IMG/VR virus record: IMGVR_UViG_3300008108_000044
Coordinates: 1 to 64,000 of that record
Origin: a virus
DNA length: 64,000 bases
Reading direction: 5' to 3' (one strand)
Every line of letters starts with the position of its first letter. Positions within the stretch are counted from its first letter, which is position 1. Shown piece by piece: positions 38,804 through 47,821 of this stretch. Under the pieces are notes generated by a model. It was given only the letters and a program-made list of their open reading frames with translations, did not search any database and was not told the DNA's origin. Made by a program: the position numbers and the translations under genes.

Positions 38804-40105
38804 ATGGCAGGAAATACTCCAAATACAAAGGCAGAATCTGGTAATATTACTAAGTGTTTGATACACTCTAAAAAATCTGGAACCGCAGATATTTCTGCTG
38901 GAATAGTAGATTTTTCGTATTTTGAAAGTATTTTGGATGCTTCTGTAAGAGTCACTTTAATGATTATTGATACTGGAAATAGTCAAGGAGGAGCAGAAAG
39001 TCTTGCTATTTTATATAAGTTAAAGTTGACTGGTTTTGAAAAAGTAGAATTAAGTTTTAATGATAATAATGGAAATAAATTGACTTTTAGTGGTAATAAT
39101 GCGCTTTATATTGATAAAATTAGGAATGTGATCTCATCATCAGAAACTACATTTTATGTTCTCGATCTTGTGTCTAAAGAATTATTAGCGAATGATTTTC
39201 TAAAAACAGAAGTCTATCAAAGATATGATGGAGAACTCTCGGCATCTGTTGGTATAATTTTAAAAGAAGTATTAAAATCTAAGAAAAGATATCTTAGTGA
39301 TCAATCGGAAAACAAAGTTAATTTTTTTGGATCTGGTAAAAAACCATTCCAGGTAATACCAGAAGTTGCAAAACTTGGAATTCCTAGTGGTTCAAAAAAT
39401 TCTGCAGGATATCTCATATTTGAGACATATGATGGATATAACTTTAAAGGAATTGATAAATTATTTGATGGATCACCTAGAAAAAAATTAATTTATAACA
39501 GTTCTACTTTATTGCCACAAGGATATGATGCAAAAATTATTCAATATACCTCAAAGAAAACTGTAGATACGCAGAAAAATTTAGTAACTGGTGCATTTGG
39601 TGCAAGACTAGAAACCCGTAATCCAGAAAAACAAATATTCAATCCAAAAGCAAAAGAGGTAAAAAATAAAGATCAAAAGCCAAGAGGTGGAACTGAGTTA
39701 TCTGAAATACCAGAAGAATTTGTTAGAGATTATGGTGAAACTAGTAAAAGAATTAGTCATGCAATGGATGTTGGAGCATCTCCATCAGGAAATAAAGGAA
39801 GACAACTTGAGAAAAGAAAAGAAGAAAATGTAGAGTCTGCTAAAATTTTAGCTCAATCGGCAATGACTTATAATAAGTTGTTTACATTATCGACAGATAT
39901 TACTATTGCTGGAGATTTTAGTTTAAGAGCTGGTCAAATGATTCACTGTGATTTTCCAGAACAATCTTCAAAAAAAGAAACTCAAACAAATAAAGAATTA
40001 AGTGGTATATATATCATATCGGACATATGTCATTATTTGACACCAAAACAATGTCTTACTATAATGACTTTGGTTAGAGATTCTTACGGTAGGAAACCAA
40101 GATAG
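38804..40105 (+). CDS. 27: Baseplate hub protein gp27
   Basis: This 433-residue protein has 'ISAGIVDFSYFESILDASVR' at the N-terminus (hub barrel), 'KPFQVIPEVAKLGIP' and 'GYLIFETYDGYNFKGIDKLF' mid-protein, and 'LSGIYIISDICHYLTPKQCL' near the C-terminus. This is typical of gp27, which forms the trimeric hub that carries the gp5 spike. A Lys-rich linker near 280-340 is extra. It is followed by a CP12-like ORF and gp5. Confidence 0.8.
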   Translation: MAGNTPNTKAESGNITKCLIHSKKSGTADISAGIVDFSYFESILDASVRVTLMIIDTGNSQGGAESLAILYKLKLTGFEKVELSFNDNNGNKLTFSGNNALYIDKIRNVISSSETTFYVLDLVSKELLANDFLKTEVYQRYDGELSASVGIILKEVLKSKKRYLSDQSENKVNFFGSGKKPFQVIPEVAKLGIPSGSKNSAGYLIFETYDGYNFKGIDKLFDGSPRKKLIYNSSTLLPQGYDAKIIQYTSKKTVDTQKNLVTGAFGARLETRNPEKQIFNPKAKEVKNKDQKPRGGTELSEIPEEFVRDYGETSKRISHAMDVGASPSGNKGRQLEKRKEENVESAKILAQSAMTYNKLFTLSTDITIAGDFSLRAGQMIHCDFPEQSSKKETQTNKELSGIYIISDICHYLTPKQCLTIMTLVRDSYGRKPR

Positions 40106-46116: not shown

Positions 46117-46869
46117 ATGGGAATTGTTGTAACAAAATTACAAGAAGATAGGGAAACTCTTTTACGGCAAAATCAAGTACTACCAGAAAGAATTTCCGTT
46201 GCATCTTCTTTAAGGGATGCTTTTAATGGACCATCTGCAAATGCTGCTCAACAAAGCTTAAATACCGTTAATGCTGCAAATGCGGTTAAAGTTCAAATCA
46301 TTGCCATTGGTGGAAATACTGGACTATTAACAACAAGATATGGTTCCAGTACAGCAAATATTACATCACAGTATGGAAGTATTGTATCTGGAGTTGGCAC
46401 TGCCACTGCTGTATCTTTGGGTATTGCTGGATTAGGAACAGCAATTATTGCGTATGGGACAGTCACAGCAGATGTTCTTAAATCTTATGACTATCCAAAA
46501 ATTTCTGGAGGAAATTATGGATCTGATTATCCATTCACTGGAGAAGGATATGTTACTGTTACATCTTCTAATGTTGGACTTGGCGTAAGTACACGATTAT
46601 TTCAAAATAGTGGGTCTGAACTGGGAAAGGTATTTGATATTATTGGTCCAGCAGTAGATGTAACCACCCTTATATCGCAATATAATTCTGGAATTGGTAC
46701 TGTATCATCTCAAAACAGTGTTGCCACAGCAACTCAAAAGATTAAGGGAGAATATGAATTGCAAGTTTGGGGTCTTAATAGACAATTACAGGAAAATAAT
46801 GAAAGATTAACCGAAATTAATGAAGCTCTTGGTTATGCAAATGATCCTGGATACGGAGGACCTTGGTAA
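46117..46869 (+). CDS. Virion structural protein
   Basis: This 250-residue Ala/Gly/Ser/Thr-rich protein has helical ends ('VTKLQEDRETLLRQNQVLPE', 'ELQVWGLNRQLQENNERLTE') and a beta-rich middle with 'YGSIVSGVGTATAVSLGIAG' and 'GYVTVTSSNVGLGVSTRLF'. A late promoter precedes it. The 'VGLGVST' and 'GIGT' style is shared with other structural proteins in the window. Specific location unknown. Confidence 0.6.
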   Translation: MGIVVTKLQEDRETLLRQNQVLPERISVASSLRDAFNGPSANAAQQSLNTVNAANAVKVQIIAIGGNTGLLTTRYGSSTANITSQYGSIVSGVGTATAVSLGIAGLGTAIIAYGTVTADVLKSYDYPKISGGNYGSDYPFTGEGYVTVTSSNVGLGVSTRLFQNSGSELGKVFDIIGPAVDVTTLISQYNSGIGTVSSQNSVATATQKIKGEYELQVWGLNRQLQENNERLTEINEALGYANDPGYGGPW

Positions 46870-46875
46870 GAGGGG

Positions 46876-46904
46876 TTGACAACCCAGAAGCAACGTCGTA
46901 TAAT
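46876..46904 (+). promoter_or_regulatory. Consensus sigma70 promoter for an RNA unit
   Basis: TTGACA, a 17-bp spacer and TATAAT (46899-46904) form a perfect consensus promoter just after the structural gene. The -35 lies in a small palindrome (46873-46885). The predicted start is near 46910, at the base of a long hairpin. Confidence 0.82.
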
Positions 46905-46908
46905 ATAT

Positions 46909-46964
46909 GGGTAATCAGTTGAGGGGTCGCCCAAGTCTCAGTTTAGATCTCTCAATGATTACCC
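46909..46964 (+). ncRNA. Structured leader RNA upstream of tRNA-Gly
   Basis: A 9-bp perfect stem (46909-46917 with 46956-46964) continues after a one-base bulge as a 5-bp stem (46919-46923 with 46951-46955). It encloses a possible GGG/CCC mini-hairpin (46924-46932). It begins at the predicted transcription start and ends five bases before tRNA-Gly. RNase P cleavage would release it as a roughly 60-nt RNA. No known family is recognised. It could be a stable small RNA, a processing aid or a degenerate tRNA-like element. Confidence 0.55.
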
Positions 46965-46969
46965 CACAC

Positions 46970-47040
46970 GCGAATGTGGTGTAGCGGTAACATCCCATCC
47001 TTCCAAGTTGGTGTCACGGGTTCGATCCCCGTCATTCGCT
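46970..47040 (+). tRNA. tRNA-Gly (anticodon TCC)
   Basis: This is a 71-nt cloverleaf. The acceptor GCGAATG/CATTCGC is perfect, the D-stem is GTGT/ACAT, and the anticodon loop CTTCCAA carries TCC (reads GGA). The T-arm is ACGGG-TTCGATC-CCCGT. The discriminator is T; CCA is not encoded. One T:T mismatch lies in the anticodon stem. Confidence 0.88.
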
Positions 47041-47041
47041 T

Positions 47042-47090
47042 GGGGAAGTGATCCTGCGGTTCTGTCCAAGAGCTCTCCTTCCCCTTTTTA
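47042..47090 (+). terminator. Rho-independent terminator after tRNA-Gly
   Basis: GGGGAAG (47042-47048) pairs with CTTCCCC (47078-47084) and is followed by TTTTT. With the promoter at 46876 it defines a roughly 180-nt RNA transcription unit. Confidence 0.65.
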
Positions 47091-47103: not shown

Positions 47104-47352
47104 ATGAAGACAAAACCTTTTTATTCCGACCTAATTGAAATGCCTGTAAAGACAACACCAGAAAATGTCAAGGAAGCAAACCTAGGTCTTTTTAATTGTA
47201 CGATGACACTTCCTGCTGCCGCAGTTCACTGTGGTATGACACAGAAGGAAATGAAAATGACCTTCCGTGAATATTTGAAGTATCATCCACCCACTTATGG
47301 GAGCGTGGTGGAATCGGTAGACACACCAGACTTAAAATCTGTCGGGAATTAA
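47104..47352 (+). CDS. Small phage protein whose end reads into tRNA-Leu
   Basis: This 82-residue frame starts at ATG 47104. The first about 65 residues ('PFYSDLIEMPVKTTPENVKE', 'FNCTMTLPAAAVHCGMTQKE', 'MKMTFREYLKYHPPTY') look like a real helix-turn-helix-containing protein. The last about 17 residues are encoded by the tRNA-Leu gene (47299-47383). The stop lies inside the tRNA. The natural C-terminus may have been replaced when the tRNA arrived. Function unknown; a DNA-binding role is a weak guess. Confidence 0.6.
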   Translation: MKTKPFYSDLIEMPVKTTPENVKEANLGLFNCTMTLPAAAVHCGMTQKEMKMTFREYLKYHPPTYGSVVESVDTPDLKSVGN

Positions 47353-47383
47353 TCCTGTGGGGGTTCAAGTCCCCCCGCTCCTA
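47299..47383 (+). tRNA. tRNA-Leu (anticodon TAA)
   Basis: This is an 85-nt class II tRNA. The acceptor GGGAGCG pairs with CGCTCCT (first pair G:T), the anticodon loop CTTAAAA carries TAA (reads TTA), a long variable arm is present, and the T-arm GGGGG-TTCAAGT-CCCCC is clear. TTA is a favoured Leu codon in AT-rich phage genes. Confidence 0.88.
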
Positions 47384-47460
47384 CTGGGAGGAGTAATAAA
47401 GGGATAGAGTATAACTCTCCGCCTCCCTCCAACTAAATATAAAAAAAGATGGTATGATGC

Positions 47461-47749: not shown

Positions 47750-47821
47750 GCCCTTGTAGCTCAGTGGTAGAGCAACGGTTTTGTAAACCGTTGGTCGCTG
47801 GTTCAAATCCAGTCGGGGGCT
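47750..47821 (+). tRNA. tRNA-Thr (anticodon TGT)
   Basis: This is a 72-nt tRNA. The acceptor GCCCTTG/CGGGGGC has two G:T pairs, the D-arm GCTC/GAGC is clear, the anticodon loop TTTGTAA carries TGT (reads ACA), and the T-arm is CTGG-TTCAAAT-CCAG. The CCA end is not encoded. It lies directly between two protein genes. Confidence 0.92.

Follow-up and report, generated by a model that had tools for sequence, protein, structure and literature searches.

RNase P cleaves at the 5' ends of tRNAs, and the stable RNAs C and D of phage T4 are non-tRNA RNAs processed from the transcript of the phage tRNA cluster. Short structured RNAs located ahead of phage tRNAs have at least one known example, abiF RNA. 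In Clostridioides difficile, abiF RNA neutralises AbiF in trans through direct binding (PMC12373285), and an abiF RNA has been annotated in the cultured phage S-CREM1 (PMC9964418). Here we describe a different hairpin RNA, which heads a tRNA operon in IMG/VR record IMGVR_UViG_3300008108_000044. The window, that is, the whole stretch of 64,000 nucleotides that was analysed, is part of this 79.5-kb virus record. Judged by its gp32, gp53 and tail-tube-cap genes and by its similarity to Synechococcus phages, the source phage is a T4-like cyanophage.

The promoter, hairpin and tRNA-Gly locus

An earlier note, made from the sequence alone, proposed that this locus is a stand-alone unit made up of a perfect promoter, a 56-nt hairpin RNA, tRNA-Gly and a terminator. 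We confirm that the promoter-hairpin-linker-tRNA anatomy is real (Table 1). The promoter is indeed perfect, matching the consensus at 12/12 positions, and its -35 box begins 7 bases past the stop codon of the upstream gene, whose protein has no match in PHROG. The window holds 2 perfect promoters when 0.19 are expected by chance. The second one (40037-40065, where a large gene ends) was set aside as a comparable unit, as a small reading frame and no structured RNA lies downstream of it. A G run of variable length separates the stop codon of the upstream gene from the -35 box (46870-46876 in the window; also in L005 and L009).

Table 1. Features of the tRNA-Gly locus, in window coordinates.
Feature	Position	Strand	Basis or remark
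Conserved phage protein gene, 250 aa, C-terminus ..YGGPW	46117..46869	+	5' of every hairpin found
Consensus sigma-70 promoter, TTGACA-17-TATAAT	46876..46904	+	
Hairpin RNA, 56 nt, predicted +1 at 46909-46911	46909..46964	+	Fold and homologues
Conserved outer stem GTAATC, partner 46957-46962	46911..46916	+	Paired in all homologues
Conserved inner stem GAGGGGTC, partner 46946-46953	46921..46928	+	97% of cells paired
Apical loop GCCCAAGTCTCAGTTTA, 17 nt	46929..46945	+	Near invariant (one R, two Y positions)
Linker between hairpin and tRNA, 5 nt	46965..46969	+	Differs among relatives
tRNA-Gly, anticodon TCC; RNase P site expected at 5' end	46970..47040	+	ARAGORN, Rfam
Terminator-like hairpin and T5	47042..47089	+	G+C-rich hairpin 47042-47084, TTTTT 47085-47089
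Small conserved protein gene, PHROG 1920	47104..47352	+	Overlaps tRNA-Leu in window
tRNA-Leu (TAA)	47299..47384	+	
tRNA-Thr (TGT)	47750..47821	+	

The transcript is predicted to start at the hairpin base, as proposed, with +1 in a run of G. The hairpin has a minimum free energy of -23 kcal/mol (z = -4.9), and 0/200 shuffled sequences were equally stable. The single bulge of the earlier note is present (G46918), but the 14-bp stem is replaced by 9 + 10 bp, with 46909-46917 pairing to 46956-46964 and 46919-46928 to 46946-46955. The loop had been drawn too large, with a GGUC/GAUC extension omitted; the computed loop is 17 nt. Both ARAGORN and Rfam call the tRNA-Gly, and the hairpin lies 5 nt 5' of the tRNA's 5' end, which is the expected RNase P cut position, again as described.

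Also in line with the earlier note, the hairpin belongs to no known RNA family: at gathering level, Rfam 15 finds tRNAs alone in the window. A permissive search of 46890-46975 (E<=10) returned one chance match (E=1.9). The abiF RNA model (RF03085) does not match the hairpin at gathering level or at E<=10, and the same library does detect abiF RNA beside tRNAs in other phages. An identity as a tRNA, tRNA-like element or degenerate tRNA was rejected, with ARAGORN and Rfam calling just the tRNA-Gly itself here.

The terminator fared less well. A hairpin followed by TTTTT is present, but it is not conserved in relatives; the proposed stand-alone unit with its own terminator is therefore not supported, the terminator being specific to the window. 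After tRNA-Gly, relatives carry CCCC-TTAATT-GGGG-ATTT or CCCCC-TTCG-GGGGG, with no T run. We found homologues of the window's 47042-47084 element, of ~43 nt and lacking a T run, directly 5' of tRNA-Gly in L228 and between genes in phage DSL-LC02 (105582-105623). Judged by its hairpin and T5, the element would terminate transcription in the window, and from its distribution it seems better seen as another modular element. L017, L021 and L023 share a conserved insert of >100 bases 3' of tRNA-Gly, which could form several hairpins (AACGGACTTGGCAAACGTCCGTACTCAC..) and matches no Rfam family. In the window, the small gene lacks the stop codon seen before tRNA-Leu in relatives and reads into tRNA-Leu.

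Conservation of the hairpin in cyanophage relatives

The upstream protein served to retrieve homologous contigs, as did the exact sequence of the loop. In T4-like cyanophages, ~22 other IMG/VR contigs contain the promoter-hairpin-tRNA unit, and one of them (L050/L062) breaks off within the hairpin. The gene order is common to all: a gene ending in GGPW, a consensus promoter, the hairpin and tRNA-Gly(TCC). A further contig, L038, breaks off right after the -35 box and is uninformative on the hairpin.

The homologues fall into two groups with ~50% identical upstream proteins and different tRNA-Gly sequences. The tRNAs are separated by 21 substitutions and one indel while the hairpin is kept, and both tRNA-Gly versions are present in many other phage contigs. 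On this comparison, tRNA-Gly has been exchanged while the hairpin stayed. At third codon positions, the adjacent gene differs by ~0.5 between the clades, and in the promoter the -10 and -35 boxes are kept while the spacer has diverged.

Across nine distinct hairpins, 5/41 columns vary in the 5' arm and loop, whereas 15/20 vary in the 3' arm and linker (Fisher p = 2e-6). Changes in the 3' arm mostly preserve pairing through G-C/G-U exchange, and the bases facing the internal loop vary freely. Pairing is kept in 98.4% of cells across the homologues, compared with 35-52% for slid partners, and four hairpin variants have the same predicted fold. Compensatory changes, which the earlier note had expected in relatives, did not appear. 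Pairs are kept in divergent homologues with 0 double changes in 14 pairs, a count that is uninformative because the 5' arm almost never varies.

The 5' arm and loop are nearly invariant beside a diverged gene, an exchanged tRNA and a 3' arm that drifts while staying paired. Therefore, selection acts beyond folding, and on these alignments it falls on the sequence of the 5' arm and loop. The pattern of variation fits a recognised loop and 5' strand, as judged from the columns, and not a passive stem. Recombination that moves the hairpin from phage to phage may have contributed to its uniformity; in the group that includes the window, however, drift has reached the 3' arm and, in part, the promoter spacer, and the loop has hardly changed. 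The earlier reading of a phage small RNA that is released by tRNA processing is plausible and partly supported; conservation strengthens it, and its release and function are what we infer.

Some relatives have the surrounding genes without the hairpin. L215 and L235 encode the homologous gene (51-54% identity), the promoter and tRNA-Gly with a leader of a few bases; therefore, the tRNA does not require the hairpin. SynMITS9220M01 has the homologous gene and promoter followed by a different small gene and tRNA-Met, with no hairpin. Such relatives with gene, promoter and tRNA indicate that the hairpin is accessory.

We found no match to the hairpin in cultured phages, and a genome-contig search with the exact loop sequence gave none either. 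A covariance model of the hairpin found no match in 61 picocyanobacterial genomes and no relative at host AbiF loci. In other phage contigs rich in tRNAs, the same model detected no divergent homologues; two matches with E ~1 were rejected as chance. Additional viral-contig matches to a broader 5'-arm pattern lack the loop, the promoter and the tRNA context and are likely chance. In a literature search that mostly covered papers readable without subscription, neither this hairpin RNA nor tRNA-leader RNAs as a class were described. The hairpin RNA family is new.

Structured leaders ahead of phage tRNAs

From the fetched viral loci, we took all tRNAs that have a near-consensus promoter <=200 nt away. 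They gave 294 distinct leaders that contain no inner tRNA; 119 of these are 30-110 nt long. The leaders in this size range mostly belong to about seven recurring families, the hairpin included, and most of these families have no Rfam entry.

The largest family (L198, L207, L208, L218, L219, L326 and others) starts at +1 with a GGGC-stem-loop-TAAGTCCC element, which is followed by Rfam's abiF RNA as its second half. It shows double compensatory changes in 11/13 pairs and sits before tRNA-Arg, tRNA-Ile or tRNA-Tyr. The cultured phage Bellamy has an element similar to this family 5' of tRNA-Gly (155488-155536). Another family that starts at +1 (L199, L226, L330, L332 and others) precedes tRNA-Gly and consists of CCGTGTGAAGG..GTGC and then a variable hairpin, with extra-domain inserts in some phages (L276, L334, L345).

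Rfam places abiF RNA 4-8 nt 5' of tRNAs at L208:2554-2590, L219:4205-4241 and L326:10325-10361. In cultured S-CREM1, it lies 4 nt 5' of tRNA-Gly (L392:401-437). Among the fetched loci, which were chosen for their tRNAs, 24/27 abiF-like motifs are within 60 nt 5' of a tRNA, and no Abi_2/AbiF homologue was found in those phage loci. The abiF tRNA leaders of cyanophages are likely orphan antitoxin decoys. At L334:9419-9455, an abiF RNA adjoins a tRNA-like sequence that was not called in full. In the unrelated mycobacteriophage Bromden, an abiF-like sequence (L390:601-643) lies between tRNA-Gly and tRNA-Lys, just 5' of tRNA-Lys. A manA RNA can also adjoin a tRNA, as the last base of the one in S-CREM1 (L392:85-371) is the first base of tRNA-Asn.

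On the host side, 11/251 picocyanobacterial genomes encode an Abi_2 gene. Six Abi_2 loci (L380-L384, L386) have an abiF-like RNA directly 5', with the same core, GGCCUCU...AUGCCCAAA, and with the GGUCACU tail of S-CREM1. These host RNAs resemble the phage tRNA leaders and are missed by Rfam's model. Two other loci (L378, L379) have a different hairpin 5' of the Abi_2 gene.

Possible functions and comparison with known RNAs

We tentatively read the hairpin as a small RNA specific to its phage lineage, a putative protein-bound decoy that acts in trans after release by RNase P. Host RNA polymerase would use the perfect promoter, starting the RNA at the hairpin base and continuing into tRNA-Gly. 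An RNase P cut at the 5' end of the tRNA would then free an RNA of ~60 nt with a closed 5' end, which would accumulate early in infection. A host protein may bind the near-invariant loop and the 5' internal-loop strand of the freed RNA. By analogy with abiF, this partner is most likely a defence toxin that depends on an RNA antitoxin, for which the phage RNA would be a decoy antitoxin. In related viruses, this slot is often occupied by RNAs that resemble host antitoxin RNAs, and therefore the hairpin may be an anti-defence decoy. Against a decoy, the hairpin itself is no abiF RNA, and no host RNA resembling it is present in the searched genomes. All its copies lie 5' of tRNA-Gly at one locus, as a role in cis would equally predict.

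Such a role in cis, on polymerase or on transcript stability, is the main rival and, on balance, unlikely. The nascent hairpin would bind the transcribing host RNA polymerase in the manner of HK022 put and promote terminator readthrough, and one early promoter would serve tRNA-Gly, the small gene, tRNA-Leu and tRNA-Thr together. Its location right at +1 of a strong promoter, its strict linkage to one operon and its near-invariant loop all agree with this, as do the terminator-like hairpin after tRNA-Gly in the window and the lack of another good promoter ahead of tRNA-Leu. put RNAs are ~70 nt long, need no dedicated protein factor and, in the case of putL, lie just past an early promoter (PMC9378689). 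However, relatives keep the hairpin without a conserved terminator, there is a single stem-loop where put has two, and L215, L235 and SynMITS9220M01 retain the gene order without the hairpin. A passive 5' cap, a stable hairpin that shields the pre-tRNA and becomes waste once RNase P cuts, is quite improbable. The hairpin base does lie at +1, and unrelated structured leaders of several kinds are found in this slot. Yet structure alone would suffice for a passive stem, which has no need of a near-invariant loop and 5' strand; here the 3' arm drifts and the loop does not, and tRNA-Gly also occurs with no leader or a very short one.

The 17-nt loop and internal-loop strand are seed-like in their near-invariance, and they could, with the 5' arm, pair in trans with a host or phage mRNA. 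We consider such a base-pairing sRNA distinctly unlikely: the 64-kb phage window has no perfect complement of >=10 nt, and 121 picocyanobacterial genomes have no 16-18-nt near-match above background, tests that apply to matches longer than short seeds. A short peptide encoded in the conserved block is very improbable. Most homologues do have an open frame starting at TTG AGG, in which two of the variable bases are synonymous. Against this, the frame is shifted in L008, the C-termini differ in all groups, L001 and clade B have no ATG near +1, there is no ribosome-binding site, and what is kept is the structure. The peptide was rejected, as its reading frame is not conserved.

If the hairpin is a trans-acting decoy, phage tRNA operons might be a general slot for antitoxin-like decoys freed by RNase P, with abiF-like RNAs directed against AbiF and the hairpin against another RNA-controlled defence. 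We regard this generalisation as doubtful. Were it true, it would account for the conserved non-tRNA hairpins on many phage tRNA transcripts, make tRNA-borne RNA decoys a further kind of phage counter-defence and provide testable counterparts in cultured S-CREM1 and Bellamy. With roughly seven leader families, most of which lack an Rfam entry, the question becomes a general one. Even if it acts in cis, the hairpin is a new conserved RNA family heading a phage tRNA operon.

Among known systems, T4 RNAs C and D resemble the hairpin by description, not by sequence, and differ from it in host and in cluster position. HK022 put RNA is likewise structured and lies just past an early phage promoter (PMC9378689). 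It consists of two stem-loops (~70 nt) that bind the zinc-binding domain of RNA polymerase and act on downstream terminators, whereas the hairpin is one stem-loop of 56 nt at +1 of a consensus promoter, ahead of a terminator that is not conserved. The manA and wcaG RNAs are also structured phage RNAs of the same virus group (PMC2864571), but they are larger, differ in sequence and are described as cis-regulators of metabolic genes. abiF RNA (RF03085) has a GCC..GCnCAAACA core with conserved unpaired bases on its 3' side, whereas the conserved bases of the hairpin are in the apical loop and the 5' internal-loop strand, and cmscan finds no match in sequence or structure. The hairpin nevertheless has in common with abiF RNA that it is a short structured RNA of T4-like cyanophages whose 3' end stops 4-8 nt short of a tRNA.
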